47,680 bases of DNA, from contig JAJRTX010000328.1 of the NCBI GenBank assembly GCA_021545665.1, positions 1 to 47,680 on the forward strand, written 5' to 3'. This document shows positions 10,788-30,074 of the stretch, one piece after another (position 1 is the stretch's first letter; every line of letters starts with the position of its first letter). Below the pieces are notes generated by a model. That model did not search any database and was not told where the DNA came from. It worked only from the letters and a program-made list of their open reading frames with translations. Position numbers and translations under genes: made by a program. The stretch is from Zetaproteobacteria bacterium. GTDB taxonomy: Bacteria > Pseudomonadota > Zetaproteobacteria > Mariprofundales > Mariprofundaceae.

Positions 10788-13700
10788 GTGAAGAAGCTGA
10801 CTCAATGGTTGTTACTGATCTGCGTTATCACGCTCAGTAGTTGCCAACTGGATACAGAGCAAGTACGGCAAGGCAACCTTCTCGACTCGGCACAGCAATG
10901 GGAGCGTTTTTCCTGGAAAAAAAATGGCCGCATGACATTCGAGAATGGTGTGCATAGCGGCAGCAGTTCAAGTTATCGAATCTTTACGAATAAAAAAAAC
11001 GACCTTCGTTTTATAAAAAAAATAAAGGTTTATGCCGGACGTTACTACCGGTTCAGCGCCAAGATTAAAACAAAGAATGTTAAAGGCGATATAGGTGCCA
11101 ACTTATCGCTATACGGCACATACAATCACAGCCAGCTTACTCTGAAAGGCAGCAATGACTGGACACCTGTCGAACAGGTTTTTCGCGCCCTTGAAGATGA
11201 CGAAGTTAAATTCGCACTCAGGCTCGGCTACTGGAATGCAACCGCCACAGGAACCGCCTGGTTCGATGATGTGCGCCTAGAAGAGCTGGCCGAATGGCCT
11301 GGCGCCTATGAACCGATCATAAAATCGCCCCCCGAACCAAAACGATCAAGCGCGCCACTGCGGCTCTTTAATTTTCTGTTTTTTCTGCCGTTCTTAGGCG
11401 CTTATCTCATCGTTCTCAGAAAAAAAACACTCGCCCCGCCCCCGCCTAACACTCAACCCCAACCCGGCCAGCCCCGGGAATTCTGGCTCTTGCTTGGCGC
11501 CGCACTCATTGCCCGGTTTGCCTTTGCCGCCTATATGGGGTTTACCCCTCAGCTGGTGGAATATAAAGCCCTGGCCTTATCGCTTGCCGAGCCATTTAAT
11601 CTAAATATTTTTCCCCAGCTATTGAATACAGAGCTTCCCAGCCCGCTGTGGCTGTATTGGCTAAGCATTGTTGGCTATATCGTTAAAGTCAATATGTTAG
11701 AGGCTACAGCCTTGTTTACCGTGTTACTGAAATTACCGGGGATTATTGCTGAAATTGGTCTGATCTATTTATTGCTGACACATCTTTCAAGATTCATTCC
11801 GGCAAAAGGTGGCTACTGGCAAGCCTGTTTTATTGCCTTGAACCCGGCTTTTATCATGGTGACGGCGTTTTGGGGAGAGCCCATTGCCATTTGCGTGCTC
11901 TTCATATTGAGCGCTATTTTTCTGGCCCACCGTTCAAGGCCATCGCAGGCCGCCATGGCATTTGCGGCAGCAATAGCGTGCAACCTGCTCAGCCTTATCA
12001 TCCTGCCAGTGTTGGCCCTGCTGTTGTACCGACGGACATCATGGTCTCCCCTGCTCAGGTTTATTGTTGTCACCGTGGCAGTGCTGACCGCACTCTATCT
12101 GCCACTATTAAGCATGATCAGCGCAGTTGCTGAATCCCCCGTTCAAGTGCTGTTAGCCTCACCCCTGAATAATCCGGCCATTGCCATTTATGGCCTGTGC
12201 ATGGTGACGGTCATGCTGCTGGCGCGCTGGCAGCCCGTCAAATGGCTGAATGGCAATGGTATGGAATCATATTTTGCCTTGTCTTATTTCGCCGCCCTGC
12301 TTGCCGCCGTGCTGCTGCCATGGTCAAAGGATCTCAGTCTATATCTTGCATTGACCTGCCTTGTGCCACTGTTAACACAGAGCCGTCATTATCGATGGAA
12401 CTTTCTTTTTATCAGCCTCTTGCTGCTGCTTAAACCCGTTTATCTATTTTCCCATTATGTTCTGATCAATGACGGCGTACCCGACGATTCCATGCTGCCC
12501 TATGTGGCTGTTGCAACACTGCTGTTTTTAATTGTTTTAGATAGCCTCTGGTGGGCTTCCCGGCGTTTTCCTTTATCCAGCCACCTCAACCGCATCAAGA
12601 CACAGTTTGCTGTTAACTGGTTTGACCATGATCACACAGCGGACAAAATATTCGTTATGACAAAATGGGACTATGCCGCCATCACTGCCATCTGGCTTGC
12701 GGCATTGTCACTGCTGCTGTTCAATATTGGTGAACAACAATACCCAACCACAGGCCAATCCTATTCAAAGACCGGCGATACATTCGAACTTGAGTTCAAC
12801 AGCCCCCAGGCACTCCACCAGGTAAGGGCCTATACCGGGGCAAAAGGCGGCGGCATAGTGCGCTTCGAATCCTGGACAGGCAGCACCTGGAAACCATTGT
12901 GGAAAAAAGGCAATGGTGTGCTGCGTTACCGGGGCAAAAAACAGTATTACAGTGCCTTTAAAGTGCTGAGAAAAACCCTCCACCGCGCACCACTGGTTGA
13001 GCGACTTCGCATTACCATTTCAGGTCATGACTTTGATCTCAATGAGCTGGCCCTGATGGGCACGGCTGGCAAGCCTATCCTGCCAGCCAGGGTTATGTCG
13101 CGGCAAGGCAAGCAAATAACCTCACGCCCCCAGGAACACCCGCTCTTCAACGAGCAGGATCAGATTACAGAGCAAACAGGCTATCAAGCCAGAACCGTTT
13201 GGGATGAGGTCACAATGGCCCGCTCTGCCAACGAACTGATCAATGGCGTGGAGCCATACGAAAAGGCGCACCCACCGTTAGGCAAAACCCTGATTGGCCT
13301 TGGCATCCGACTATTTGACATGACCCCTTTTGGCTGGCGTTTTGCGGATGCACTGGCAGTAGCCTTGCTGCCTGTGTTGCTGTTCATCGGTGGCCGCTGG
13401 CTCACAGGTAAACGTATCGGTGCTTATGTGGCTGCCGTGCTGACAATGTTTGAGCTGATGTTCTTTATTCATGGCCGCTGGGCCAATATTGATACTTTTC
13501 TGGTGTTGTTTATCACTGCCTGCCTGCTGGCCTTATATCGATGGTATTCGCTGGGTCAGGGACAATTCAGACGTGGCAATCTAAACTGGTTTTTGCCGGC
13601 AGGCCTGCTATTCGGACTGGCGGCATCGGTAAAATGGAACGCCCTGTTCGTAGGCTTTGCCCTGTTTATTTTGCTGGTGGGTGCCAAGGTGTCGGCCTTT

Positions 13701-14435
13701 ACAACGGCATTAACAGCACAGCGCTCAGGCTCTGTTGACGCCGTCAGCCGATTCTGGCGGCGCGATTTATTGCCCAGCGTGGCCTACTGGGTAATCGGCT
13801 TTTTGTTATTACCCGCACTGGTTTATTATTTCTCTCATCTTGAATTCATTCACACCGCACCAGGAAGCCCAGGCGTCTGGTCTGCTGAAGGTCTGCGCGT
13901 TTTCATTGAGCAGCAATCGTATGCCTGGCATTACCACGCCGACCGCGACACCACACATTCAGGCAGCTCTTTATTCTTTTCCTGGCCAGTCATGTGGAAG
14001 CCCATGTGGATGTATTCACCGGGAGGTGTGGCCGATGGAATGCATGCCAGCCTGAACTTAATCGGCAACCCCGCCATCTGGTGGTCGGGTTTTATCGTAA
14101 TGATTGGCATTGGCTGGACAGCATTGCGTGGCAACAACAAGGTTGCCCTGTTTCTTGCCGGTCTCTATTTTCTGCAATTCATACCCTGGTTACTGGTCAC
14201 ACGCACCAGTTTTATCTATCACTACTACCCCTTTCTGCCGTTGCTGATTCTTGGTATCGCCTATGCCGCATCCCGGCTCAACTACCACAAATGGCTACCA
14301 CGTATCGCATTGGCCACATACTTACTGTTAGTGATTGCAACCTTTGCCCTCTATTACCCCTTGGTGACAGCAACGCCGGTGCCTGAAACCTATATCGAAA
14401 ATCTGCGGCTATTTGATACTTGGTCAGTTTTATAA
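10788..14435 (+). CDS. large PMT-type (GT-C) glycosyltransferase with periplasmic beta-domains
   Basis: A 1215-residue protein starting at GTG. Residues 1-19 form a lipoprotein-like signal (ITLSSC, Cys19). Residues about 25-170 look like a carbohydrate-binding beta-sandwich (aromatic-rich, ending GTAWFDDVRLEEL). A first set of about ten membrane helices (about 190-620) resembles the GT-C mannosyltransferase fold. A second beta domain follows (about 650-770). The C-terminal half is a protein O-mannosyltransferase (GT39) module: WDEV near residue 805 has the catalytic-type acidic pair in the first luminal loop, followed by EKAHPPLGK near 825, GRWANIDTF, then WHYHADRDTTHSGSS. Such enzymes take a sugar from a polyprenyl-phosphate carrier and attach it outside the inner membrane. 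The donor could be the product of the 16252-22025 operon. The double GT-C layout is unusual. Confidence 0.85.
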   Translation: MKKLTQWLLLICVITLSSCQLDTEQVRQGNLLDSAQQWERFSWKKNGRMTFENGVHSGSSSSYRIFTNKKNDLRFIKKIKVYAGRYYRFSAKIKTKNVKGDIGANLSLYGTYNHSQLTLKGSNDWTPVEQVFRALEDDEVKFALRLGYWNATATGTAWFDDVRLEELAEWPGAYEPIIKSPPEPKRSSAPLRLFNFLFFLPFLGAYLIVLRKKTLAPPPPNTQPQPGQPREFWLLLGAALIARFAFAAYMGFTPQLVEYKALALSLAEPFNLNIFPQLLNTELPSPLWLYWLSIVGYIVKVNMLEATALFTVLLKLPGIIAEIGLIYLLLTHLSRFIPAKGGYWQACFIALNPAFIMVTAFWGEPIAICVLFILSAIFLAHRSRPSQAAMAFAAAIACNLLSLIILPVLALLLYRRTSWSPLLRFIVVTVAVLTALYLPLLSMISAVAESPVQVLLASPLNNPAIAIYGLCMVTVMLLARWQPVKWLNGNGMESYFALSYFAALLAAVLLPWSKDLSLYLALTCLVPLLTQSRHYRWNFLFISLLLLLKPVYLFSHYVLINDGVPDDSMLPYVAVATLLFLIVLDSLWWASRRFPLSSHLNRIKTQFAVNWFDHDHTADKIFVMTKWDYAAITAIWLAALSLLLFNIGEQQYPTTGQSYSKTGDTFELEFNSPQALHQVRAYTGAKGGGIVRFESWTGSTWKPLWKKGNGVLRYRGKKQYYSAFKVLRKTLHRAPLVERLRITISGHDFDLNELALMGTAGKPILPARVMSRQGKQITSRPQEHPLFNEQDQITEQTGYQARTVWDEVTMARSANELINGVEPYEKAHPPLGKTLIGLGIRLFDMTPFGWRFADALAVALLPVLLFIGGRWLTGKRIGAYVAAVLTMFELMFFIHGRWANIDTFLVLFITACLLALYRWYSLGQGQFRRGNLNWFLPAGLLFGLAASVKWNALFVGFALFILLVGAKVSAFTTALTAQRSGSVDAVSRFWRRDLLPSVAYWVIGFLLLPALVYYFSHLEFIHTAPGSPGVWSAEGLRVFIEQQSYAWHYHADRDTTHSGSSLFFSWPVMWKPMWMYSPGGVADGMHASLNLIGNPAIWWSGFIVMIGIGWTALRGNNKVALFLAGLYFLQFIPWLLVTRTSFIYHYYPFLPLLILGIAYAASRLNYHKWLPRIALATYLLLVIATFALYYPLVTATPVPETYIENLRLFDTWSVL

Positions 14436-16251: not shown

Positions 16252-17676
16252 TTAAGACTTCCGCACCACCTGCGTTACATAGGCGGTGACTATCCCGCTA
16301 ATACCGCGTTTTAACAGACTGTCCATGGCTGTGATGAAACTGTCGATATGCTCACGCTCTATGGTTAGGGCGGGTTCAAGACGTATGACATTACGATTGT
16401 ATTCGGTAAAGGCCACCAGAATATCGTACTGTTTAAGCAGCAGCGCACCAATGAAGCCACACAAACTGCCTTTGAGTTTCTCATCCAGCACGGCAACCAT
16501 TTGCCGAACCCCGATTGGCAGGGTCTGGCTAAAGTCATTAAATTCAAGCCCGATCATCAAGCCCTGACCACGCACCTCTTTAATGAGTTTTGGGTATTTT
16601 GTCTGCAATAGATTTAATTGCTCAAGCAGATAGGCACCTTGCGTAGCAGCGTTGTCGATTAGCTTTTCATCGTAAAGAATATTCAGCGCTTCGATAGAGG
16701 TGCAGCAGGCCTCGCCGATACCGCCAAAGGTTGCCGGGCCGTGGATTAATGCCGTCTTTGGTGTGCCGTAAGCTTTCATATAGAGCGGTCGCCGGGCAAT
16801 CATTGCGCCCATGGCGGTCTTGCCACCACCAAGGGCTTTGGCCAGCGTCACCATGTCCGGAACCACACCGGCATGTTCAAAGGCAAAGAACCGGCCGGTG
16901 CGACCCACACCACACTGCACCTCATCAGCAATCCACAACACGCGATAGACATCACAAAGCCGGCGAACCTCTTGCCAATATTCAGGCGTGGCTGTAACGA
17001 TACCTGCCCCTCCCTGAACGGTTTCAAGAATCAAAATACCGATAGAGCTATCCTGTTTCAGGGCAGCCTCCAGCGCTGCGGCATCACCAAAGGGGATACG
17101 CACCCGATTATCGAGCAATTTATATGTAGATTGATAAAAGCTGGAATCTGTCACTGACAATGCACCACGGCTTTTACCGTGAAAAGAGTTCTCAGCATAG
17201 GCAATGGTTGCCCGCTGAGGCCCCTGCACACTCTCTGCCAGCTTGAGCGCTGCTTCTACTGCTTCAGAGCCTGTTGAACCAAGAAAGACCATATCAAGAT
17301 CGGCAGGTGCGATTGCAGCCAGATTATTGGCCAATGTGGCTGCGTACTGTGACATGAAAGCCATGGCAATTTCGTGGCGCAGCTCATCTTGAAATTGCTT
17401 GCGCATGGACAGGATACGCGGATGATTATGCCCCAGGGCGACGGAACCAAAACCACCGAAAAAATCGAGTATCTTGCGGCCAGTCTTGTCCGTGTAAAAC
17501 ATGCCTTGTGCGGAATCCACCAATACTTTGTCAAAACCTAACAGTTTCAGAAAATGAAGCTGGCCCGGATTCAGATGCTGGCAAAACAGATCGGCAGTTT
17601 CCGCAGCCGTCAGGTTTTTTGCATCGGACACGCTTAACAAATTCGGAGGGGTAATCGGCTTAGGTAGATTGCTCAT
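16252..17676 (-). CDS. class III PLP-dependent aminotransferase
   Basis: A 474-residue aminotransferase of fold type I, class III. Visible family features are the substrate-side GGFGSVALGHNHP, STGSEAVEAALKLA, the cofactor Asp in IADEVQCGVGRTG, and the PLP lysine Lys280 in TLAKALGGGKTAMGA. Enzymes of this class move an amino group from a donor such as glutamate or alanine onto an aldehyde or ketone. It is the last gene of the operon that starts at 22025, 31 bp after the DprE1-like oxidase, so its substrate may be the keto-sugar lipid made by that enzyme. The acceptor is not readable from the sequence, and an ornithine/GABA-like substrate unrelated to the operon remains possible. Confidence 0.88.
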   Translation of the reverse strand: MSNLPKPITPPNLLSVSDAKNLTAAETADLFCQHLNPGQLHFLKLLGFDKVLVDSAQGMFYTDKTGRKILDFFGGFGSVALGHNHPRILSMRKQFQDELRHEIAMAFMSQYAATLANNLAAIAPADLDMVFLGSTGSEAVEAALKLAESVQGPQRATIAYAENSFHGKSRGALSVTDSSFYQSTYKLLDNRVRIPFGDAAALEAALKQDSSIGILILETVQGGAGIVTATPEYWQEVRRLCDVYRVLWIADEVQCGVGRTGRFFAFEHAGVVPDMVTLAKALGGGKTAMGAMIARRPLYMKAYGTPKTALIHGPATFGGIGEACCTSIEALNILYDEKLIDNAATQGAYLLEQLNLLQTKYPKLIKEVRGQGLMIGLEFNDFSQTLPIGVRQMVAVLDEKLKGSLCGFIGALLLKQYDILVAFTEYNRNVIRLEPALTIEREHIDSFITAMDSLLKRGISGIVTAYVTQVVRKS

Positions 17677-17707
17677 TGATTATTGTTTCCGTCGCAGTTC
17701 ATGATCG

Positions 17708-19078
17708 TTATGATTTTTTGTGCCCAGCATGGGCTGTTTTGGTGTTTCTTATACGGAGCCGTCTGGCGAGGTCTGACATCATACGTTGCTCCGGATCAAT
17801 CTCATTTAGCAGCTCGCGCATTTTATCAATTTTCGGGTACATGCGTTCAAACGCCTGCGGAGACAGACAGGCATCTTTGGCAAGATAGACACGACCACCA
17901 TGATCCAGCGTGATAGATTCAAGTTGTGCCAGCAGGTTTTTCGTGTCAGAGCGACGAGGAAAATCCAGAGCCAGCGTGTAACCACGCTTAGGAAAGGACA
18001 ATAAGCCCTGCCCCTCATCACCCAGTGTTTTGAGTACGGCCAGAAATGATGCCGCACGCGATTGTGAGATTGCCTCAAGCAGGCGACGTATGCCGATGGG
18101 GCTGGCGGCATCATCAAGTACACATTGAAACTGGTAGAAGCCGCGCCGACCGTAAATTCGATTCCACTGCAGAATCGCATCCAGAGGATATAGAAAATGC
18201 TCCATCGGCAATAAACGTTTTCGTCCCTGTGGAGAAATACGATGGTAGTAACAATGATTGAAAGCACGCACAGATAAAGCGTTTAATGCAAAGCCGGGCA
18301 AATCCATCGGTATCGTCAAACGTCTTTGCGATTGCACAGGAATGATTGCATCTGCCAGCTCAGCGGTTTCGAGTATGCCGCGACCGAGATTAGCCCCCTG
18401 TGCCATTGAGTCTATCCAGCCCACAGAATAAGTTGCATGATTGCGTGCAGTTTCAAAAGCGGTGAAGAAGTCATCCAGATTTTTTATGCGCTGCTCTTTT
18501 AACGCAACCGCATTTGTCGTCACAGCTTTCATTCTGAAACAGATAGCCAGCATCACCCCGGTCAGGCCGACGCCACCGATGGTAGCGGCAAACAACTCAG
18601 GTTGAATATCCCGAGAGATACGCACCGTCTCACCCGATGGCACTAACAAATCAAGCCACAACACATGATCACCAAAGCTGCCGCTATGGTCATGATTTTT
18701 TCCGTGTACATCATTGGCCACCGCGCCACCAATGGAGGCAAAACCTGTACCGGGACTGACAGGAACTAAAAAGCCCTGAGGTAACAGCTCGCGCAGTAAG
18801 TCATTAAAAGTGACGCCCGGGCCACAGACAATCTCAGCGGAGGCTGGATCAAAACTATAAATTTGATCAAGGCGATTGGTGATGAGAGTTTGACCGCCAT
18901 CATTCAAGGCGGCATCGCCATAACTGCGGCCATTGCCATAGACAATAATGCCATGATCTGCCGCGCTGCGGATCGCTTCTGCCGCGCCTGTATTTTGCGC
19001 CGGTGTGCAGGCCGTAACATTGGCGCGAGAAGTTCGCCCCCAACCACTGAGTGTCGCCTCCTGCCAATCCAGTTTCAT
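17708..19078 (-). CDS. DprE1-like FAD-dependent oxidase
   Basis: A 456-residue flavoprotein resembling decaprenylphosphoryl-beta-D-ribose 2'-oxidase (DprE1). The start LSGWGRT, the FAD-binding (PCMH) segment with YGNGRSYGDAALN, and VHGKNHDHSGSFGDHV match that family, as does a lysine in YLAKDA (Lys401) that corresponds to the active-site lysine of mycobacterial DprE1. The active-site cysteine region of the mycobacterial enzyme was not aligned. In mycobacteria DprE1 makes the 2-keto sugar, which DprE2 then reduces to the arabinose lipid. No DprE2-like reductase is adjacent here; an aminotransferase follows instead. The UbiA frame is directly upstream (see 19099-20541). Confidence 0.87.
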   Translation of the reverse strand: MKLDWQEATLSGWGRTSRANVTACTPAQNTGAAEAIRSAADHGIIVYGNGRSYGDAALNDGGQTLITNRLDQIYSFDPASAEIVCGPGVTFNDLLRELLPQGFLVPVSPGTGFASIGGAVANDVHGKNHDHSGSFGDHVLWLDLLVPSGETVRISRDIQPELFAATIGGVGLTGVMLAICFRMKAVTTNAVALKEQRIKNLDDFFTAFETARNHATYSVGWIDSMAQGANLGRGILETAELADAIIPVQSQRRLTIPMDLPGFALNALSVRAFNHCYYHRISPQGRKRLLPMEHFLYPLDAILQWNRIYGRRGFYQFQCVLDDAASPIGIRRLLEAISQSRAASFLAVLKTLGDEGQGLLSFPKRGYTLALDFPRRSDTKNLLAQLESITLDHGGRVYLAKDACLSPQAFERMYPKIDKMRELLNEIDPEQRMMSDLARRLRIRNTKTAHAGHKKS

Positions 19079-19098
19079 AAGGCTTTATGTAGCTGCAT

Positions 19099-19194
19099 TT
19101 AGAGGCCTGCCCAGAGAATAGCCAGGGTAATCAGGGCCAACCAGCGACTGCGTACATCTTGAATGGCAAACACCACGGGGTCTTCATTCATCTA
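19099..19194 (-). pseudogene. in-frame C-terminal remainder of the HAD-UbiA gene behind an amber codon
   Basis: The UbiA frame ends at a TAG (minus strand, 19194-19192). Past that codon the same frame stays open for 30 more codons to a TAA at 19101-19099, beginning MNEDPVVFAIQD and ending in a hydrophobic segment. Homologous HAD-UbiA proteins end in RRG-E-M-x-x-DPVVFA, so this is the normal C-terminus cut off by one codon. GAG (Glu) to TAG needs one base change. The restored stop lies 20 bp before the DprE1-like ATG, a normal operon gap. Causes could be a real nonsense mutation, readthrough or suppression, or a sequencing error. Confidence 0.75.
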
Positions 19195-20541
19195 GCCACG
19201 ACGAGCCAGCAGCCAGGCCCTGCTGATCCAATATAGCAATATAGGACACAGCATCCAGACCGCCTCAGGATAAGTGTAGAGCAACCGGATCTCACTGCTA
19301 TTGATGTAAAAGGCTAATACCAAAACGGCCATGTAACCACTGCTGCTACCAAACTGAGACAGGATGTCCAAATCACCTACCCGGTAGCCACGACCATGCA
19401 GAAGCTGATCGTTATCCTCTGGCTGCGCCAGTAGTTCTGAATATCGTTTAACCAGTGCAAGACTTAGAAACAGGAACATGGCAAAGGCCAGCAACCAAAA
19501 TGAATACTCCACACCAACAGCAGCAGTGCCGGCGATAATACGCAAGGTATACAGCGCCGCAAGCACCAGCACATCGACCAGCGCAGCCTGTTTAAACCAG
19601 AGCGAATAAGCCAGTGTAATCAGAAAATAAAACGTTAAGACCAACAAAAACTCAACCGGCAGCGCAAGTGCAATCGTAAAACCAAGCAGCAAGAGTGCCG
19701 GGATTAACAAGCTAGCCTGTTTGATAGACAACACACCCGCAGCCAGCGGACGATGGCGTTTGCTGGAATGGCGCCGGTCGGCAGGCAGATCCAACAGATC
19801 ATTGAGAAGATAAATACTGGAAGCACATAGACCAAAGGCAAAAAAGGCCAGACCGGCCTGTAGCAGCAAGCCTAGATCATTGACCTGATGGGACAAAGCC
19901 AAGGGCACAAAAATCAATAAATTCTTGACCCATTGGTGTAAACGCAGAGCCTTGAAATAGGTCAGCAGACCAACCGGCGGGCCTGGGAATATTTCTTTTA
20001 TCCTGCCCAGTTTCCCAGCCTGTTCCTGAACACCAGCCTCAGCCGCCACCAATATGATTCCATCGGCATGCCGCCAGACGTCCAAATCAACCTTGGCATT
20101 ACCGGCATAGTCGAAACCGCGCTCACCAAAGCTGTCAATCAGACGCTGGCATTTGCGGCGCCCGGACAAGTTGCTTTGGTTATCACTGGCAATAACCGCA
20201 TCAAACAGCCCCAGATGTAAGGCAATTTGTTCTGCATATTTGATGTTAGAGGCAGTGGCAAGCACAAGACTTCGCCCCATCGTCTTCTGCTTCCTTAAAT
20301 AATCCAGAAACGTTTCATGGTAAGGCAGATGCTCAACATCCAGCTCTACCCGATCGGCAATCTGTTGTTTGAAATAGGCCTTACCCTTGAGTAACCATAA
20401 AGGCAGGAACAGGACATAGATAAAGTTCTGTTTCAGTAGTGCAAAGATAGATTCAAGCAATACATCGGTACGCACCAGCGTACCGTCCAGATCCACGCAC
20501 AAAGGCAACGTCGGAGTAGCATCTATATCAGGGTTTGCCAT
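19192..20541 (-). CDS. HAD phosphatase-UbiA prenyltransferase fusion (DPPR-synthase type), shortened by an amber codon
   Basis: A 449-residue two-domain protein. Residues about 12-200 are a HAD hydrolase: DLDGT with nucleophile Asp17 and general acid Asp19, later NAKVDLDVW. Residues about 205-449 are a UbiA-fold membrane prenyltransferase with the Mg-diphosphate motif NDLLDLPADRRH and a second-site YSLWFKQ. Members join a phosphorylated pentose to a polyprenyl phosphate (as DPPR synthase joins PRPP), and the HAD domain likely removes the 5-phosphate. The family C-terminus lies beyond the TAG in the same frame (19099-19191), which would give 480 residues. Operon gene four of six, counting the small ORF upstream. 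Confidence 0.88.
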   Translation of the reverse strand: MANPDIDATPTLPLCVDLDGTLVRTDVLLESIFALLKQNFIYVLFLPLWLLKGKAYFKQQIADRVELDVEHLPYHETFLDYLRKQKTMGRSLVLATASNIKYAEQIALHLGLFDAVIASDNQSNLSGRRKCQRLIDSFGERGFDYAGNAKVDLDVWRHADGIILVAAEAGVQEQAGKLGRIKEIFPGPPVGLLTYFKALRLHQWVKNLLIFVPLALSHQVNDLGLLLQAGLAFFAFGLCASSIYLLNDLLDLPADRRHSSKRHRPLAAGVLSIKQASLLIPALLLLGFTIALALPVEFLLVLTFYFLITLAYSLWFKQAALVDVLVLAALYTLRIIAGTAAVGVEYSFWLLAFAMFLFLSLALVKRYSELLAQPEDNDQLLHGRGYRVGDLDILSQFGSSSGYMAVLVLAFYINSSEIRLLYTYPEAVWMLCPILLYWISRAWLLARRG

Positions 20542-20554
20542 AGAGATATTCGAC

Positions 20555-20662
20555 TTATAGCCAGATCAGGCGATTGTTAGCAAAAAATGCGGCAGGCAAA
20601 GCCAAAGCGATACTGATTGCAGCCGCACGCCTGCATACAAAGTTAATCCACCATTCATCCAT
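20555..20662 (-). CDS. 35-residue single-helix membrane peptide
   Basis: An ATG at 20662 opens a 35-residue frame beginning MDEWWINFVCRRAAAI and continuing with one hydrophobic helix to a TAA at 20555. A good ribosome site, GTGAGG, lies 6 bp before it. It fills the 137-bp gap between epimerase and UbiA, 16 bp after one and 13 bp before the other. The composition (acidic-aromatic start, Arg pair, helix) fits a small inner-membrane protein, perhaps a partner of UbiA or a remnant of a larger membrane protein. No family recognised. Confidence 0.5.
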   Translation of the reverse strand: MDEWWINFVCRRAAAISIALALPAAFFANNRLIWL

Positions 20663-20678
20663 GCCAGCCTCACTTATC

Positions 20679-21644
20679 TCATTTGGCGAAGGAGTTATAT
20701 GCCTCGAGTAACATATCGAAATCGCCGTATTCCGGTGTCCAGTCCAACACAGACTCAGTGTGGCTGATGTCAACGATATAGTCTTCATCGGCAATCTCAA
20801 ACTGTTCTGGAACCAGTGGCGATAAATTAACCTTATCGAGCAGCCTCAAGGTATGCTTGATCAGGCTGGCCGGGGTGCTGACTAGAATTGAGCGGGAGCC
20901 AGCTTCACTGATCAGGCCATTCAAAAGTTCACGAACCGTGGGCGCATCCTTTGAGCCCAGGTTAAATTCGCTATTGGGAATGCCTTTTTCCCAGGCACGA
21001 ACCGCTGAGCTGGCACAATCAAACACCGAGATCATTTGATAGTGATTACTGCCATTGCCTATCAAAGGCACTGGCAGACCATGCTTAATGAATCGAAACA
21101 AATGTAAAAGAATACCCAACCGCCCCGGGCCAATAATCAACCGAGGACGAAAAATTGAAACGTTTAGACCTTCGCTGCGTTTCGCAATGCAGTAGTCTTC
21201 ACAGTGACGTTTGCTATCGGCATATTCACCAATAGGATTTCTCGGATGGTCGTGCATAATTGGCTGTTCCGTCAAAATCTTACCGTAGACCATGTCTGTA
21301 CTGAATTGCAGCAGATTATTACAACCTTTCTGAAACATCGTATCGACGACATTTTTTGCGCCCTCATAGTCAACAGAAAAGAAATAATCATGGCGCTGCT
21401 TACGCGGCATTACAGGGTGCAGCATTCTGGCAGCCATGTTGTAAACCACATCATCAGGTTCTATAGGTGCGCTGGCCAATGCCTGTTTATCTGTTATATC
21501 CAGATGCACAAACTGGGCCTCGGGATAGATTGGCAAATCACTTTTTTGAATATCACAAACAACGACTTCCTCGCCGAGCGCCAGCAAGTCACGCGCTGTA
21601 TAGCGACCAACAAACCCATCACCACCAATGATTACATGTTTCAC
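20679..21644 (-). CDS. NAD-dependent epimerase/dehydratase
   Basis: A 321-residue extended SDR enzyme with the nucleotide motif GGDGFVG (residues 7-13) and the catalytic pair in YADSK (Tyr and Lys four apart), preceded by the FSTDMVYG segment that carries the catalytic Ser/Thr. It is similar in plan to sugar-nucleotide epimerases, although the substrate may be a polyprenyl-linked sugar. It is 12 bp after the EamA-type gene and upstream of the UbiA fusion, so it is part of the same transcript. It could epimerise or reduce the oxidised sugar, taking the role of DprE2. Confidence 0.85.
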   Translation of the reverse strand: MKHVIIGGDGFVGRYTARDLLALGEEVVVCDIQKSDLPIYPEAQFVHLDITDKQALASAPIEPDDVVYNMAARMLHPVMPRKQRHDYFFSVDYEGAKNVVDTMFQKGCNNLLQFSTDMVYGKILTEQPIMHDHPRNPIGEYADSKRHCEDYCIAKRSEGLNVSIFRPRLIIGPGRLGILLHLFRFIKHGLPVPLIGNGSNHYQMISVFDCASSAVRAWEKGIPNSEFNLGSKDAPTVRELLNGLISEAGSRSILVSTPASLIKHTLRLLDKVNLSPLVPEQFEIADEDYIVDISHTESVLDWTPEYGDFDMLLEAYNSFAK

Positions 21645-21656
21645 AGGTTCAACTCC

Positions 21657-22025
21657 CTAGCTATGCGCAATAAATACAGTGCCGACACAAATCAGTGCCA
21701 CCCCGGCCATGCGGTAATAATTTATGTCTTCCCCAAACATAAGATATCCCGCGATCAGCACCAGAATGTAAGAAATACTCAAAAAAGGATAAGCAAAACT
21801 GAGCTCTACTCTGGACAAAACCATTAAATGCAACCCCATGCTAAACACTAAGGTAAGCAAACCAGTAATGATGTAAAGATTAAGGGCTACACGCGGAAAC
21901 ACGCTAATGAGCGAAGAGCTGGAAAAATCAAAATGGCCTATGGTCAACATGCCTTTTTTAAGCAGGATTTGCGATAACGCATTGGTGCTGACAACAGCGA
22001 GAATCAATGGGATGTATTTCTGCAT
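21657..22025 (-). CDS. EamA/SMR-type small transporter (ArnE/ArnF-like flippase subunit)
   Basis: A 122-residue protein with four membrane helices, the SMR/EamA half-size layout. The N-terminal segment NALSQILLKKGM has the small-transporter pattern with the basic KK, and the later SFAYPFLSISYILVLIAGY is the classical helix-four region. Proteins of this kind (ArnE/ArnF) flip undecaprenyl-phosphate aminoarabinose; here it is the first gene of the operon making a polyprenyl-linked sugar. A strong ribosome site, AAGGAGG, lies just before the ATG at 22025. Confidence 0.85.
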   Translation of the reverse strand: MQKYIPLILAVVSTNALSQILLKKGMLTIGHFDFSSSSLISVFPRVALNLYIITGLLTLVFSMGLHLMVLSRVELSFAYPFLSISYILVLIAGYLMFGEDINYYRMAGVALICVGTVFIAHS

Positions 22026-22299: not shown

Positions 22300-22332
22300 A
22301 AAAAAGGGCGATGCTTTGAGGCATCGCCCTGA
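22300..22332 (-). terminator. rho-independent terminator of the SdrD-like gene
   Basis: The minus strand reads AGGGCGATGC-CTCAAA-GCATCGCCCT followed by nine T, a perfect 10-bp stem. It sits about 40 bp after the SdrD-like gene stop. Confidence 0.9.
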
Positions 22333-22370: not shown

Positions 22371-25300
22371 CTAACTCCAGCCATCAGACCAACTGTGTTT
22401 TTTATTCTTCTTACTCTTTTTGTCTTTTTTGTCTTTTTTATCTTTTTTATCTTTTTTGCTCTTTTTATCCTTTTTGTCTGAACTGCTATCACCGTCTGAA
22501 CTGCTATCGCTGTCGGAATCACCATCAGTGTCAGATTCACAGACCCCACCATCGGAATCGCTGTCACCGTCAGAGCTGCTATCGCCGTCTGAACTACTAT
22601 CACTGTCGTGACTCATACCCCAACCACCAGACCAGCCGTGACCGCTATCGCCATCTGAGCTCGAGTCACCGTCGGAGCTTGAATCACCATCCGAATCTGA
22701 ATCGCAACCCTGCTCAGGTTCAGTCGGTATAACGGTCACAGTCGCGGTATCAGTGGCACTGCATAACTCGCCAGTCACCAAGTTACCTGTCACCAAGGCA
22801 ACATTAATAGTTGTCTCATTGATGCAGGCAGCTTCAGCCACAGTCACCGATGCATAACTAGCCAAGGTTGTCTCTGGCAGAGCAATCTGCCCCAGCTTGT
22901 CATCAGACAACATCAAGTTAGTTACACCGCCGCCATTGTTACTAATAACATAGGTGTAAACAACTTCTTGGTTGGCTGGGCATGCGCCAGAGCCACTGCT
23001 ATCACCGTCGGAACTGCTATCACCGTCCGAGCTGCTGTCACCATCAGAACTGCTGTCACCATCGGAACTGCTGTCACCGTCGGAACTGCTGTCACCATCG
23101 GAACTGCTGTCACCATCGGAACTGCTGTCACCATCGGAACTGCTGTCACCATCGGAACTGCTGTCACCGTCCGAGCTGCTGTCACCATCAATATAGATTG
23201 TGTCATTAGAGACGCTCTTGACGACACTTAGATCGCAATTGCCAGTACCGAAATAATGGCTTGGATCATTCGCGCTGACACCAGGGCCAAACGGTGGTGT
23301 ACCAGTTACAGTACCAATGTTAGCGTACTGTCCTTCGATAGCCGTTCCACTGGCGGTACAGGTCATGCTTTCATTGACAGCCAACATGGCCTGAGGGCAG
23401 GTTACGATAACCCCCTGGTCATCACTGACCATCACATTCGTCAACATAACATTGCCTGTATTGGTCACCACATAAGTCCACTCAACCAAACCACCCACTG
23501 TAATAAATGGCCCGGTAGGCAGATCAGCATCCTGGCCGTTAGTGGCCTTCTCAATCATGATTGCAGGGGCAGGTGGTAAATAGATTCCCGCATCCACATC
23601 CAGATAGGTGTCGTTGGATACCAAGGTGACACAAGTGGTCATACCCGCCTGCTCAGCATCACTGTCTACGGTTTCGTCAGTTCCCTGATTAGCAGGACTA
23701 AAGACCCAATCTGTCAGATTGATGAATTCAACCATGTAACCGCCAGGCATCAAGCCTTGAAACAGATAGTTGCCATTGGCATCTGTGGCCGTTGAAGCAA
23801 GCAGATTGTTTACACAATCGTACAGATTAACAACGATTCCACTTACACCGGACTCATTACCATCCTGAATACCGTTCTGATTCAGATCATTCCAGACCCG
23901 GTCACCCAAACTGGCCTTTCGGAAAAGACCTGCATCAATGGTTCGATTAACCTCAGCCACAGCAAGCGTGACGCATTCACTATTCATACTTGTGTCAATA
24001 TTGCTGTCAGTGGCGGTATCGCCTCCCTGATAACGTGGGCTAACATTATAACCAAAAGGCATGTCTACGTTGACGACATAACCGCCTGGAGCCAGATTGT
24101 CGAACAGATAATCGCCATTGTTACCGGTGATTGTGCTGCCGACTGAAACGCCTTGGCAGGTGAGCAGATTAACAGTAACACCAGCAATACCCGGTTCGCC
24201 CATATCCTGAACACCATTGGCATTCAGGTCTTCCCAGACGTAATCACCAAGCATGGCAGTGGTGGGAATGAACATACCTGCATCAATATCGGTACGGTTT
24301 TCACCGGAGCTTAACGTGACACAAGTGGTCTGTCCGTTGCCATCAGCATCGCTGTCCAGATCAGCAAACAAACCCTGTCCCTGTGGACTCAAGGTATACA
24401 TATTGGGAGTCACAAACTCAACAATATAACTACCAGGAAGCAGACCAACGAATTCATAAAAACCATTCGCTGCTGTCACAGTGGTGGCACGAACATTACC
24501 GATACAATCCAGCAATCTGACAGTGACGCCATCCATGCCTGACTCACCTGCATCCTGAATGCCATCCTGGTTCAAATCGTTCCAAACAAAATCACCGATT
24601 GAAGCTGGATTATACAGCCCTGCATCAACGGTATTATTGTTATCACCTGCCATTAACTGAACACAGTCTGTTTGACCAGTGACCGGGTTGGCATCACTGT
24701 CCACGGCATCGTCTGTCCCTGCATCCATTTGGCTAAGTGCATAGCCCATAGGTGCAACAAACTCTACATAGTAGCTACCAGCAGCCAGGTTGGTGAATTG
24801 ATAGAAACCATCTATATCAGTCAGCATAGTACTTTCAATCGCCGTGCTACCACAGGTGTATAACCTTACTTCAACACCGGCAACACCAACCTCAACACCG
24901 TCCTGAACACCGTTTCCATTAATGTCTTCCCAGACATAATCGCCCAGTGAAGCGGGTATCGCTTTAGGCACCAGTCCAGCATCCCAAGTGGTGTCATTTT
25001 CACCCGAGGTAAGCGTAGTGCAATTGGTACGACCGGTCAGCTGATCAGCATCGCTGTCAATAGCGTCATCGACACCTGCATCTGCCTGACTGAAATCAAA
25101 ACCAACAGGTTTGATAAACTCAACAAAATAATTACCAGGCGCCAGATTAGTGAACTGGTAGAGACCCGCAGCATCAGTAAGCATAGTGGCTTCAGGCACA
25201 GCACTACCACAGGTGTACAACCTTACTTCGACACCCGCAACACCTGTTTCAACACCATCTTGAATACCGTTACCGTTGGTGTCTTCCCAGACATAATCAC

Positions 25301-26771
25301 CCAACGAAGCGGGTAACTGCTCTTCAACCAAACCGGCATCCCATGTGGAATCATTTTCACCCGGGCTAAGCGTCGTACAATCAGCGCGGCCGCTCAACTG
25401 ATTAGCATCGCTGTCGGCAGTATCATCAGCACCTTGATTTTGACTGGTAAAAACAAAACCAGCAGGAGCAACGAACTCAACAAAGTAATCGTTTGGAATC
25501 AGGTTGATGAATTGATAAAAACCGCTGTTATCAGTGAACGTTGTCGCTTCAGCTGTAGCACTACCACAGACGTATAAATTTACCTCTACACCTGCAAAAC
25601 CAAACTCTGTTCCGTCTTGAATACCATTGCCGTTAGTATCGTCCCAAACATAGTCACCCAGAGAAGCCGGGCCTGGTGTGGGAATAAAACCTGCATCCCA
25701 GCTGTTATCAACTTCACCAGCAATCAGATCGGTACAAGCTGTCAGACCACTGAAAGGGTCGGCATCGCTATCGACATTATCCTGTGTGTTGCCATTCGCA
25801 TCTTGCAGGGTCGGGTTGTCATAGCCAGGGGGAGTGAGAAATTCTAGATAATAACTACCGGGCATTAAACTGGTGAATGAGTATGTACCGTTGGCATTTG
25901 TGTTGACAGTATCAACGAATGAACCGCCGCAGGTGTACAGATTAACTGTAGCGCCGGCAATACCAGGTTCGCTAGCATCTTGAATGCCATCGCTGTTATT
26001 GTCTTCCCAAACGTAATCGCCTATTGCAGCGAGTGTCTGTGTAGTGGTGATTTCTGACAATATAATATCAAGGTCGGGCTGCAATGCGTTTAAACGCATC
26101 TGAACGGCACCAAGATTACTAAAATCAACACCGCTACCGCCACAACTCACCGAAACAACATCGATCCCACCAAGGTTAATCGAACCACTGCCACAGCTAT
26201 GAAACAAATCGAATGACAGGCTAACTGCTACTGGTGAACCCTGGAAAACCTGTGGGGACTGAATCTCTACTACTGAAAAATCAGCCGCATCAGTGTAGAC
26301 CTCAACCGTGAAGTTAAAACCTGAAGGCAAATCAGCGAAATCAATCTGAAGTTCGATAGCACCAACAGTGCCTGCCTCAGTCAGGTCGACACCACCAAGC
26401 CCAGCGGGGTTAAGGCTGATACTCTGATCAGAGCCATCCCACTGCACCAATGCAGTACTAGTAGCCGAAGAGTCATTACTAAAATAGAGCTTGCCCGCAA
26501 CGATAGTCAGGGTAGAGTTGAGCTGTGGGTCGATTGAACTAATCAAATCAACGCCTGCATCCCGCTGCCCCCCCAAAATGGTAGAGCCAACTGCAGAGGA
26601 ATCAGAGACTGAAACACCATCAGACAATGAGTCCGTCATTGTTTGAAGCTCGACAAAATTATCGACAAATCCAGCCTGAGCTGTAGGACTCAAGGCAAGC
26701 AGCAACATCAATGCTGCGGTAAGTGAAGGTGTCCGGCGGTGTTGCCGCCAGCCTGAAAACAATCTATTCAT
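22371..26771 (-). CDS. giant SdrD_B-repeat surface protein with DGDSSS repeats and Lys-rich tail
   Basis: About 1466 residues, starting at the ATG at 26771, which AGGAG precedes. A signal peptide (cleavage after TAQA) is followed by a domain homologous to the PEP-CTERM protein at 6510-7301 (shared ILGGxRD, VQWDGxD, GFNF, VDFxNLGAxQ). Seven SdrD_B-type domains follow, each of roughly 115-120 residues and opening with GDxVWxDxNxxGxQDxxExG. Then comes a DUF11-like domain (IEKATNGQD...VTNTGN) and a second one interrupted by an 11-unit DGDSSS tract. The C-terminus has more Ser/Asp runs and a Lys/Asp tail ending [10 protein letters not shown]. There is no PEP-CTERM or LPXTG signal. The protein is most likely a secreted or surface adhesin/matrix protein; Asp-rich repeats suggest calcium binding. 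Expression is predicted from a sigma-54 promoter with a PrsR box. Confidence 0.88.
22374..22475 (-). repeat. Lys/Asp-coding simple-sequence tract
   Basis: On the coding (minus) strand this is a run of AAA/AAG lysine codons broken by GAC/GAT and AGC/AGT codons, giving [18 protein letters not shown] sequence. It directly follows the acidic Ser/Asp region. Runs of five or six A make it prone to slipped-strand length change and frameshift. Confidence 0.8.
22992..23189 (-). repeat. 11 x 18-bp tandem repeat encoding DGDSSS
   Basis: Exactly 198 bp, eleven 18-bp units; ten encode DGDSSS and the last encodes DGDSSG. Units differ only at a few synonymous positions (for example GAT/GAC, TCC/TCG), so expansion is recent. 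It lies inside the coding region and keeps frame. It splits a DUF11-like domain between NDTIYI and GACPANQEV. Confidence 0.9.
23590..26030 (-). repeat. seven tandem SdrD_B-type domain repeats
   Basis: Seven diverged units of about 345-360 bp each; the GDYVW-coding positions lie near 26010, 25655, 25295, 24940, 24590, 24240 and 23900. Units 2-4 are most alike ([20 protein letters not shown]), pointing to recent local duplication. Boundaries are approximate. Confidence 0.8.
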
Positions 26772-26962
26772 ACTCAACTCTCCTACATTCAAATAATTCT
26801 TATTTTTAATAACGAATTGAAATCATAACCGACTGAAAAACATCATAAAACACACACATCCTTGCCTGCATTCGATAAAGTATCCGTCACATAATGTCTA
26901 TTCAGACACCACATCACACTGTCAGATTAACGACCTGGACATCAATTCTTAAGAGTAGGTTA

Positions 26963-27253: not shown

Positions 27254-30016
27254 TTAAAGTCGCTGCAGCAAAGCCTCTGCCTCACCACGACCTTCAAATG
27301 CTTTAAAATCCCTTAACAGGCGATTTAGCTCTTTACCCGCCTCTTCTGTACGACCAGCCTTTTCTAAAGCAATCGCAAGGTGATAACTGATTTCAGGGAT
27401 ATGTGGCGCCTTAGCCCGCGCCTCCTGTAACAAAATCAAGCCTTCATTAACCTTGCCACTCTCTACATATATCCACCCCACCGTATCCATAACAGCGGGA
27501 TTACCCGGTGCCAGAGCATTAACCTTTTTGGCATACTCTAACGCCCTCTTGTCATTTTCCTGCTGGTACAACCAGGCAACATTATTCAATGCAGCAACAT
27601 TTTCATGCTGGTATTTCAGCACGATTAAATAGTGTTCAATTCCACTTTTGAACTTATCGGCTCTCTGATACCCCATGGCCAACATAAGCCGTACTGATAC
27701 ATCCTCAGGATTCGCTTTCAGCCATTGCTCCAGGGGCACCAAAGCATTATCCAAACCTAACTGGCTTCGAGTTCGATACAGCTTCACAACATTAGAAACT
27801 TTCATTTCTTTGGAAAAGGCTTTGGCATACGATTCTTCGGCCAGCTGCTTTTTGTTTTGAGCCAAATATTGATCACCCAAAAGCTCATAACCTACATAAA
27901 CCTCAGGACTTTTAGTAATAATCTGGTCAGCCAGCTGTTTAGCTTCTCCATACTGTTTTGATTGAATATGTATTCGGGCCAGCATAATTTTAGCTGGAAC
28001 AGAGTCCTTATTCAGCGTTAAGACTGACGTCAGCGTCTCAACCCCCCGCTCAAATTTTGAGGCTTTTATCTGCGCCTCTGCCAACAACATCAACGCCTGA
28101 ATAGACTCAGGCCGTAAATTGACCAAACCCTGGAAGGTAGAAATTGCATTACTAAAACCCTCATTCGCAAGCTGCGCCTTACCCAGTATCACTTTTGCCA
28201 GCGGATGCTGAGGGTGGACATCAGCCGCCTCTCTTGCCACCGTGAGCGCCTTCATTGGCTCACCCTGAACCAAATAGGCATTTGCAAGCAATAGCATCGG
28301 TTCCAAAGATTTTGGATTTGCCTTGCCCGCTTTTTTGATCCAATTTAGGGCCGTATCTCTATCTCCTGCAGCGTCAGCCACACGGGCCAAAGCCAGCATC
28401 GCCCCCAGATGAGAAGCATCAACCTTTAGCAGTTGTTGATAATAATTTTTCGCCTGCTCTGATTTACCATCCTCTATAGCCAGTTGCGCTAGCCCCATAT
28501 AGGCCGCAGCGAATTTGAAATCTATTTCCAGCGCCTTCTCAAACTGCCGCTTAGCCTCGGCACTTTTGCCTGCGTTGGCATAACTCACCCCAAGTATATT
28601 TAAAGCCACCGGGCTATCCGGCTGCTTTTTCACCAACGCCTGTGCTGCTGCAATCGCCTTATCAAACTGCTTAGTTCTTATGTGACTATAGACCAACAAC
28701 ATATCCGCCATGGCAAGCCCCTGATCAAGATCTATTGCCATTTCGAGATTACTGACTGCCGCCTCATTCTCTCCCGCAACCAATCGGCCAAGTGCTAACT
28801 GGGCACGAATTGACGCCATATCCGGCGCCAACTCAGCTGCTTTCTGTAAGTTTTCGGTGCCCTTCTCATTGTCACCAATATGTAAATATGCCGTTCCCAA
28901 TAACGCCAACAATTGAGCATCAGAACTATCATGACTGAGCACATCCAAGGTCTCTATCACCTGCTGTGGCTGCTTGAGTTTAAGATAAACCGAGGCCAAA
29001 ACTTTACGTCCCTGCACATGATCCGGCGCAGCCGCAATAAAACGACTGAGATGATATTCGGCCTGCTCAAACTCGCCCAGCTGATAACTTGCCATTCCCA
29101 GCAGCAGCAGACTCTGTATATGGTCTGGCACAACCTTTAATACCTTGTTCAAAGCATCTTTAGCCTTGCCCGGCTCGCCCGCCTGAAAATAGACAACCGC
29201 TTGAAAATAATTTGCAATGGGGTGCTGGGGGGCAAGTTTAAGAATCAGCTCCAAATCTTTTGCTGCCGAATCAAATTGCTGCAAGGCCACTTCAGCCATC
29301 GCCTTACCCAGTGAGGCCAGCAGATTCTGAGGCTGTAGCTGACTGACCTGAGAAAACACAGCCAATGCTTCTGCATGTTTGGCTTGGCGCCGAAGCAGCT
29401 CCCCCTTAACAATCAACGCATCCACATCTTCCGCATTCGCTGCCAACACCTGATCCACATATTTTTCTGCCAGGGTATTGTCATTTGCGTTTACAGCCAG
29501 CCTGGCCTTGCCCAACAACGCAGTGGGAAAACCAGACACCAGAATCAAAGCCGCTTCATAAGCATCCGCAGCATCCTCAAATGATTTCTGAAGCAACAGG
29601 GCATTACCATGCACAACCATCACCCTGGCACGCGCCTCAACTGGGGCATTATCAGCAAGTCTGACTTCTGACAATGCTTCTTGAGACTTGCCTTGCATCA
29701 GATAAGCCCGCCCCAGTAGAGGCATGCCTTTTTCTGCCTTTAGTCCAAACTCCAAGGCTTTGCGCAACTCTTTTTCTGCCGAAGCCCCATCTCCAAGCTC
29801 AACATAGGCCTTACCAAGCAACAGTCGAGCCTCAGCATGACGTGGCTCCTGCTGCAACGCATTTTTAAGCTCGATAACTGCTGACTTATATTCCTGTTGA
29901 GAGACATAATCTCTGGCTTTACCGAGATAAACATCGACATCCGCAGATAAAGCAAGCGCAGGTATCAACCACAATACCAACCAGCTGAACAAAAGACTGA
30001 AACTAAGACTTTTCAT
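27254..30016 (-). CDS. prsT: PrsT-family TPR protein, operon copy
   Basis: About 920 residues from the ATG at 30016; a TTG at 30034 would extend it by six residues, but GGGG spaced before the ATG favours the shorter start. The signal peptide (SLLFSWLVLWLIPALALSA) is followed by about 20 or more TPR repeats with regular A-x-x-x-F/Y...P patterns. Unlike the copy at 7821 it has no lipobox Cys at the cleavage site, so it is probably a soluble periplasmic protein rather than a lipoprotein. It is 58 bp downstream of prsR, in the canonical prsK-prsR-prsT order of exosortase A loci. Its role in those systems is thought to be envelope assembly or export. Confidence 0.87.
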   Translation of the reverse strand: MKSLSFSLLFSWLVLWLIPALALSADVDVYLGKARDYVSQQEYKSAVIELKNALQQEPRHAEARLLLGKAYVELGDGASAEKELRKALEFGLKAEKGMPLLGRAYLMQGKSQEALSEVRLADNAPVEARARVMVVHGNALLLQKSFEDAADAYEAALILVSGFPTALLGKARLAVNANDNTLAEKYVDQVLAANAEDVDALIVKGELLRRQAKHAEALAVFSQVSQLQPQNLLASLGKAMAEVALQQFDSAAKDLELILKLAPQHPIANYFQAVVYFQAGEPGKAKDALNKVLKVVPDHIQSLLLLGMASYQLGEFEQAEYHLSRFIAAAPDHVQGRKVLASVYLKLKQPQQVIETLDVLSHDSSDAQLLALLGTAYLHIGDNEKGTENLQKAAELAPDMASIRAQLALGRLVAGENEAAVSNLEMAIDLDQGLAMADMLLVYSHIRTKQFDKAIAAAQALVKKQPDSPVALNILGVSYANAGKSAEAKRQFEKALEIDFKFAAAYMGLAQLAIEDGKSEQAKNYYQQLLKVDASHLGAMLALARVADAAGDRDTALNWIKKAGKANPKSLEPMLLLANAYLVQGEPMKALTVAREAADVHPQHPLAKVILGKAQLANEGFSNAISTFQGLVNLRPESIQALMLLAEAQIKASKFERGVETLTSVLTLNKDSVPAKIMLARIHIQSKQYGEAKQLADQIITKSPEVYVGYELLGDQYLAQNKKQLAEESYAKAFSKEMKVSNVVKLYRTRSQLGLDNALVPLEQWLKANPEDVSVRLMLAMGYQRADKFKSGIEHYLIVLKYQHENVAALNNVAWLYQQENDKRALEYAKKVNALAPGNPAVMDTVGWIYVESGKVNEGLILLQEARAKAPHIPEISYHLAIALEKAGRTEEAGKELNRLLRDFKAFEGRGEAEALLQRL

Positions 30017-30074
30017 TTTAAACCCCAATTGCAATTGACCAATTTTCGCCTATCAAAACACCGCATCCAAATAA

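Follow-up and report, generated by a model that had tools for sequence, protein, structure and literature searches.

We analysed a 47,680-nucleotide contig of a Zetaproteobacteria bacterium (JAJRTX010000328.1, assembly GCA_021545665.1), called the window at its full length, and found at positions 16252 to 22025 a minus-strand cluster for a polyprenyl-phosphate sugar in which a class III aminotransferase (AT3) accompanies a DprE1-like oxidase and no DprE2-type reductase is present. The cluster is real, conserved and functionally coupled, and another reaction, most likely a transamination, takes the place of its DprE2 step. Judging from sequence comparison, we consider it quite probable that the cluster makes a lipid-linked 2-amino-2-deoxypentofuranose through amination by AT3, and are slightly less confident that the amine is placed at C2. 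A preliminary description of this DNA had proposed an aminotransferase in place of DprE2; the co-occurrence of the families, the absence of DprE2 and the existence of DprE1-AT3 fusions uphold this replacement, while the amine and its position stay predictions. The features are as follows.

16252..17676, minus strand: AT3, class III aminotransferase dependent on pyridoxal phosphate (PLP) (PF00202, 288.7 bits), proposed to aminate a 2-keto sugar
17708..19078, minus strand: DprE1-like flavin adenine dinucleotide (FAD) oxidase (NF053785, PDB 4aut), proposed 2'-oxidase of polyprenyl-phosphoryl ribose
19099..19191, minus strand: 30 in-frame codons after the TAG of the HAD-UbiA gene, matching the C-termini of its five nearest relatives
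19192..20541, minus strand: HAD-UbiA fusion, polyprenyl-phosphate phosphoribosyltransferase and 5'-phosphatase (NF006088), with an early in-frame TAG
20555..20662, minus strand: candidate 35-codon ATG frame between Epi and HAD-UbiA (sequence reading)
20679..21644, minus strand: Epi, extended short-chain dehydrogenase/reductase (SDR) with a GalE fold (PF01370, 110 bits), proposed epimerase of the lipid-linked pentose
21657..22025, minus strand: EamA, an ArnE/F-like small membrane protein (PF00892, 30.8 bits), proposed to form half of the flippase of the lipid-linked sugar
22305..22330, minus strand: terminator-like hairpin 5' of the EamA gene (pattern match only)
10788..14435, plus strand: PMT-type GT-C protein (PF02366, PF16192), whose association with the cluster is not supported

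AT3 was found only where DprE1 occurs in the same genome. A scan of genome contigs gave 54 AT3 loci, 52 of them with a 57-77% identical AT3, and whole-genome searches covered 50 of the 54 (all except L044, L049 and the distant L053 and L054, which are 31-32% identical). DprE1 and AT3 lay in one contig piece in 34/54 loci, and DprE1 was present in all 50 genomes behind the AT3 loci versus 1/14 named control genomes. In Hyphomicrobiales, EamA-Epi-AT3 formed a recurrent cassette, often after HAD-UbiA-DprE1, and several gammaproteobacterial loci had DprE1-AT3 without Epi. Moreover, we searched an order sample of 199 genomes and a class sample of 274, both drawn by taxonomy and not by AT3, albeit around one AT3 genome each (G016 and G003, respectively), in which part of the SDR and aminotransferase candidates of each genome was scored. 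None of the 391 DprE1-negative genomes in the two samples had AT3. The conserved co-occurrence that the preliminary description had named as a check was found, for AT3 with DprE1, in every AT3 genome searched (10/10 AT3 genomes in the order, 4/4 in the class, 50/50 behind the AT3 loci).

AT3 and DprE2 divided nearly all the sampled DprE1 genomes between them. The order sample contained 30 genomes with DprE1, 10 with AT3 and 20 with DprE2, the last two sets being disjoint and together making up exactly the 30 DprE1 genomes. The class sample contained 52 with DprE1, 4 with AT3 (G003 and G006 among them had been identified earlier), 47 with DprE2 (46 with DprE1, and G389 without it), none with both and two with neither; these two, G288 and G429, have an SDR of 239-240 aa directly after DprE1 that is 26-27% identical to DprE2. 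Fisher tests, whose values overstate independence since the genomes are kin, gave 1.4e-9 (order) and 0.0012 (class) for AT3 within DprE1 genomes, and 3.3e-8 (order) and 5.5e-5 (class) for AT3 against DprE2 within that same set; dropping the two AT3 genomes of the order that were known in advance changed its values to 6e-8 and 3e-7, respectively. The DprE2 models are sensitive enough for this comparison, because five proteobacterial DprE2 proteins beside DprE1 scored 334-364 bits with NF005489 (179-200 with NF053786). When the DprE2 candidates of the 14 AT3 genomes in the two samples were rescored nearly completely (AT3 in DprE2 genomes was left at its first scoring), no DprE2 was found in any of them, the best score being 98.3 bits versus 320-340 in two positive genomes.

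Among the 50 AT3-locus genomes, a DprE2-type SDR of at least 200 bits was missing in 44 and present in six, so that the absence of DprE2 homologues, also part of the preliminary description, was borne out apart from these six exceptions. Two of them, G014 and G018, carry two HAD-UbiA/DprE1 sets each, one beside DprE2 and the other beside AT3. In the other four (G027, G029, G030, G045) AT3 may serve other substrates or the same intermediate. A converse case is G092, with the order HAD-UbiA-DprE1-EamA-Epi, a DprE1 within the AT3 clade and an unlinked DprE2; the genome search found no AT3 there, and no frame for it lies between Epi and the next gene, which encodes an unassigned protein of ~570-585 aa that adjoins AT3 or DprE1 in several rhizobial loci. 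This looks like a natural swap back.

In three loci the two enzymes are a single protein. L004, L143 and L144 encode DprE1-AT3 frames of 957, 963 and 956 aa, in which a FAD-binding domain is followed first by an ALO and then by an Aminotran_3 domain. With the L143 fusion as query against 5.8 billion proteins (~8000 candidates scored), 22 proteins were listed, of which 16 were full-length fusion clusters. These are 924-963 aa long, share 55-100% identity with the query, which is one of them, and comprise 104 member sequences; the other six matched over 42-46% of the query and had no aminotransferase domain in the precomputed list. This diversity makes assembly errors unlikely, and the fusions point to consecutive reactions of the two halves. 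An AlphaFold model of the fusion was not used (mean pLDDT 66.7, pTM 0.49, worst in the linker and the aminotransferase half). Beside the fusion of L143, a 131-aa frame with a partial UDP-GlcNAc 2-epimerase match (PF02350; L143:5221-5616) lies between HAD-UbiA and DprE1-AT3. A 445-aa FAD amine-oxidase-like protein (PF01593) directly follows AT3 both in this gammaproteobacterial fusion locus (L143:8860-10197) and in the orphan-AT3 locus of Chitinophaga sp. GbtcB8 (L039:11413-12750); the two are 46% identical and possibly perform a further step on the amino sugar.

The partner of DprE1 also follows its phylogeny. In a quick tree of 106 DprE1 sequences with SH-aLRT support only, 47 were labelled AT3, 51 DprE2 and 8 remained unlabelled; the AT3 label included L088-L092, which have Epi and EamA and no AT3 in their 4-kb piece (AT3 was found in the genomes of L089-L092 and not in that of L088, which is G092). 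The partner label requires at least three changes on this tree versus a mean of 32.9 with shuffled labels. Its AT3 rows comprised the gammaproteobacterial group of the window, a group of rhizobia together with Methyloprofundus, and a single Roseobacter within a DprE2 group, and the AT3 tree placed the window with DprE1-linked gammaproteobacterial and Thermodesulfobacteriota loci (98/89). From these groupings, AT3 seems to have paired with different DprE1 lineages. Orphan AT3 genes of an Actinomycetota and a Chloroflexi metagenome-assembled genome lie near proteins of one sequence cluster (L036:1597-2934, L043:4179-8220); scans of two of these proteins showed a NAGPA (phosphodiester glycosidase) domain in L043:4179-5510 and no Pfam hit in L036:1597-2934.

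As to the single proteins, the five larger frames lie where the preliminary description had placed them and belong to the families it named. Its sixth frame, an 81-codon membrane peptide (20555-20800), was discarded: it begins at a TTG codon, shares 122 bases with the end of Epi and has no Pfam match, and the ATG frame of 35 codons at 20662-20555 is a possible gene. HAD-UbiA scored 616 bits with NF006088 (cut-off 351) and 101 bits with PDB 8j8j over its UbiA part, and N247, D248, D251, D255, R366 and E369 are present, located by motif and not by alignment to ORF15 of Citrobacter youngae. HAD-UbiA or UbiA was found in 48/50 AT3 genomes at E<=1e-20, 40 of them above cut-off, with no match at this threshold in G006 and G025. 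G001-G004 have only UbiA-type matches (170-193 bits), and since these begin downstream of the HAD portion of the model, dephosphorylation there presumably comes from another enzyme. In the DprE2 genomes G155 (L068) and G119 (L071), the DprE1 match lies inside open frames of 971-974 aa beside HAD-UbiA, which suggests HAD-UbiA-DprE1 fusions.

The DprE1 of the window scored 403.5 bits with NF053785 (cut-off 500) and 246 bits with PDB 4aut; DprE2-linked proteobacterial DprE1 proteins likewise fall under the NCBIfam equivalog cut-off. Y53, H125, Q316, Q318, K350 and K401 in the numbering of the window protein, which are expected to serve in catalysis, are conserved in 47 AT3-type and 51 DprE2-type proteins, with one gap per set at Y53. 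Residue 122, three before H125, is Asn in 45/47 AT3-type and Ser or Ala in 41/51 DprE2-type proteins. As a mark of specificity it is confounded by kinship, six of the nine Asn122 DprE2-type proteins forming a clade that is sister to the rhizobial AT3 proteins. The position of Mycobacterium tuberculosis Cys387, the target of benzothiazinones, is Ala in the window and in 48/51 DprE2-type and Thr in 35/47 AT3-type proteins, and was dropped as a marker because this pattern tells little. The AT3 genome G025 encodes a second, distant DprE1-like protein (L099:6808-8199), 27% identical to that of the window and scoring 215.7 bits with the DprE1 model. The solved structures nearest to AT3 are PDB 4ppm (PigE) and 4uox (PatA, putrescine aminotransferase), and AT3 lies far under both family cut-offs (PigE 351.6 of 850 bits, PatA 301.8 of 612). 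K280 and D251, identical in 190/190 aligned rows, would be its PLP lysine and aspartate by alignment to PatA.

Epi and the flippase differ in how they go with AT3. EamA was found in 41/52 AT3 loci and 0/53 DprE1+DprE2 loci, and GtrA in 0/52 AT3 loci and 22/53 DprE1+DprE2 loci, the latter being mostly 4-kb pieces, not de-duplicated, outside which some GtrA genes may fall. Such a division would follow if the flippase had to accommodate another kind of sugar, one that is cationic. The EamA protein of the window stays below the equivalog cut-offs of ArnF (47.4 of 99 bits) and ArnE (38.7 of 92). Epi, which has a GalE-type fold and keeps YxxxK, lies beside AT3 in 40/52 loci. In a search of 50 genomes (42 with AT3, G092 and seven with DprE2) at E<=1e-25, it was present in 27/42 AT3 genomes, in G092 and in none of the seven. 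Of the strains that have AT3 only, Bosea thiooxidans DSM 9653 possesses Epi, and no Epi was found in Hoeflea marina DSM 16791. Eleven AT3 genomes have neither a DprE2 nor an Epi match, so AT3 alone can apparently replace DprE2, and on this distribution Epi appears as an optional modifier and AT3 as the replacement. Epi as a substitute for DprE2 was rejected, being missing from 15/42 AT3 genomes. In L001 (7579-8619), and as same-cluster proteins in L002, L005 and L006, an LPG_synthase_TM membrane protein is encoded just ahead of DprE1 or HAD-UbiA; these loci have no EamA beside AT3, and the protein may be their flippase.

We propose the following route. HAD-UbiA would transfer phosphoribose from phosphoribosyl pyrophosphate (PRPP) to polyprenyl phosphate and then remove the 5'-phosphate, as demonstrated for another protein with this architecture (PMC11127046), and DprE1 would oxidise C2 to a ketone, as mycobacterial DprE1 is known to do. 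AT3 with its PLP would transaminate this ketone, where DprE2 would have reduced it to arabinose, and polyprenyl-phosphoryl ribosamine or arabinosamine would result. Where Epi is present, it would invert a further centre and so yield an amino sugar of xylo or lyxo configuration; the analogy to the Citrobacter ORF13 epimerase makes C3 the likeliest position. EamA would flip the cationic product to the periplasm, where a GT-C enzyme would attach it to a surface glycan or to lipid A. Further, we lean towards a broader proposal: this would be a second, ribose-derived bacterial route to an aminopentose, in which DprE1 and a class III aminotransferase, sometimes in one bifunctional protein, yield polyprenyl-phosphoryl 2-amino-2-deoxypentofuranose, with Epi varying its configuration up to lyxo (inversions at C2 and C3), and in many bacteria of soil and sea the sugar would make surface glycans or lipid A positively charged, as 4-amino-4-deoxyarabinose (Ara4N) does in enterobacteria.

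Several points weigh against the amine reading. Class III aminotransferases mostly use aldehydes or omega-amines. Four AT3 genomes with a DprE2-type SDR (G027, G029, G030, G045) have a 57-70% identical AT3 on a contig separate from DprE1, and EamA and Epi persist in G092 in the absence of AT3, so both can serve without it. A DprE2 may lie elsewhere in the genome of the window, the cluster frames themselves encoding no short-chain SDR. The seven candidate transferases of relatives that were compared have no counterpart in the window. Neither a lipid-linked amino-pentofuranose nor a pathway of DprE1 with an aminotransferase appeared in the titles and abstract starts of the open-licence literature searched, which is weak evidence of absence, and product and position are guesses. 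PMC5078965, in which xylosamine occurs 24 times, hints at an earlier description of a nucleotide-linked 2-aminopentose. Finally, HAD-UbiA is interrupted in the window, and the copy of the pathway there may not work. Among the best 120 of 7573 homologues (~8000 candidates scored), the TAG at 19192-19194 leaves the window protein with 449 aa versus 465-513 aa in the other 119, the five nearest relatives (79-86% identical) all having 481 aa; the window copy therefore lacks ~31 C-terminal residues. That this loss abolishes the pathway in the window we regard as a tangible possibility, though one we lean against. It is compatible with amination in the relatives, where HAD-UbiA is intact. The 30 in-frame codons past the TAG remain nearly identical to the C-termini of the five nearest relatives, and none of the other four frames is interrupted, as would be expected of a mutation that is very recent or of an error in the sequence.

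Three other readings concern AT3 itself. It may aminate another keto position or substrate, the ketone being made by Epi or another enzyme or DprE1 oxidising a different carbon; GalE-type SDRs pass via keto intermediates, and the Asn122 preference would fit an altered DprE1. We consider this unlikely, given the AT3 genomes that have no Epi, the kinship that may explain Asn122 and the six DprE1 residues that are the same in both sets. An ordinary arabinose pathway, in which Epi or an unlinked SDR performs the DprE2 reduction and AT3 makes another metabolite needed simultaneously, would accommodate the SDR membership of Epi and its frequent place beside AT3, the unchanged DprE1 residues, and G092. 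It is nevertheless quite improbable in view of the 11 AT3 genomes without Epi and DprE2, the GalE-type fold of Epi, the 16 fusion clusters and the mutual exclusion of AT3 and DprE2 among the sampled DprE1 genomes. Least of all do we expect AT3 to be an HpnO-like hopanoid enzyme, or a polyamine or amino-acid aminotransferase that merely adjoins the cluster. HpnO, according to PMC12583986, is an aminotransferase-family protein acting on ribosylhopane, is confined to Hyphomicrobiales among the alphaproteobacteria studied and typically lies outside the hopanoid cluster, and among solved structures AT3 comes closest to PigE and putrescine aminotransferase. Against this very improbable reading, hopanoid synthesis as described there needs no DprE1, whereas AT3 occurs in no DprE1-negative genome of the two samples, is found fused to DprE1, goes with the absence of DprE2 and scores well under the PigE and PatA cut-offs.

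For the transferase, the preliminary description had pointed to the GT-C protein at 10788-14435. We rejected it as a dedicated enzyme of the pathway, since nothing in the 54 AT3 loci is related to it at E<=1e-5 and it resembles protein O-mannosyltransferases. Candidate transferases of the PMT_2 type lie beside the cluster in L001, L005, L051 and L144, and of the seven candidates compared only those of L001 and L144 resemble each other (E<=1e-3). Upstream of the cluster, the hairpin at 22330-22305 separates EamA from an SdrD-repeat gene and is likely the border, as a pattern match of a kind that occurs at 14 sites in the whole window versus 7.9 in shuffles. That gene (22371-26792) encodes a protein with seven SdrD_B stretches and a lysine-rich end, and within it an 18-base tandem repeat (10.8 copies, 22995-23189) encodes repeats of the Ser-Ser-Asp-Gly-Asp type. 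Two XrtA/PEP-CTERM TPR proteins, PrsT (7821-10598 and 27254-30034), flank the cluster, both exceeding the family cut-off. These proteins, together with a PEP-CTERM response regulator, PrsK, an EpsB-type transferase and TviB, mark the surroundings as a region for XrtA/PEP-CTERM exopolysaccharide, a possible though uncertain target of the sugar.

If the amine reading is correct, an unrecognised amino sugar together with its whole activation route is added to the polyprenyl-phosphate sugars, and the DprE1 ketone becomes a branch point leading to arabinose or to an amine. AT3 beside or fused to DprE1 would then be a marker predicting amino-furanoses in the surface glycans of Hyphomicrobiales and Gammaproteobacteria, an annotation of DprE1 alone would not predict arabinose, and bacteria would have a new way of putting amino sugars on their surface.

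Compared with known systems, the cluster shares steps with several. With the Arn pathway it has in common a predicted polyprenyl-phosphate-linked aminopentose flipped by an ArnE/F-like protein; the differences are the use of PRPP and a lipid-linked ketone, a furanose and not a pyranose, an amine expected at C2, and a class III in place of a DegT-type aminotransferase, and no DegT-type or ArnA match was found among the open reading frames scanned in the window. HpnO, from aminobacteriohopanetriol synthesis, also acts as an aminotransferase on a ribose that an isoprenoid lipid carries (PMC12583986), with neither DprE1 nor polyprenyl phosphate involved; likened to AT3 by description and not by sequence, it is at once a precedent for the proposed chemistry and a rival. 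The mycobacterial decaprenyl-phosphate-arabinose pathway (UbiA, Rv3807c, DprE1, DprE2, Rv3789) and rhizobial noeCHOP share the UbiA and DprE1 steps, and alphaproteobacterial plasmids have the order UbiA-GtrA-DprE1-DprE2 (with an extra gene in two), whereas AT3 loci lack the DprE2-type reductase and GtrA and have the aminotransferase and EamA instead; the window cluster likewise has DprE1 and no DprE2. The cluster also resembles the three-component pentofuranose systems of Citrobacter youngae O1/O2, with a HAD-UbiA synthase, an ArnE-like small flippase, a sugar-setting GalE-like SDR and a GT-C transferase. According to Kelly et al. 2024 (PMC11127046), the HAD-UbiA protein ORF15 makes polyprenyl-phosphate ribofuranose from PRPP, the GalE-like SDR ORF13 sets xylofuranose instead of ribofuranose, and candidate arabinofuranose systems contain DprE1/E2 homologues; a search of the main text of that paper gave no mention of an aminotransferase. 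The window has the HAD-UbiA synthase, with its in-frame TAG, and a predicted small flippase of the right family below the ArnF cut-off, and adds DprE1 and a class III aminotransferase. We regard the cluster as a new variant of these three-component systems, with a replacement for the DprE2 step.

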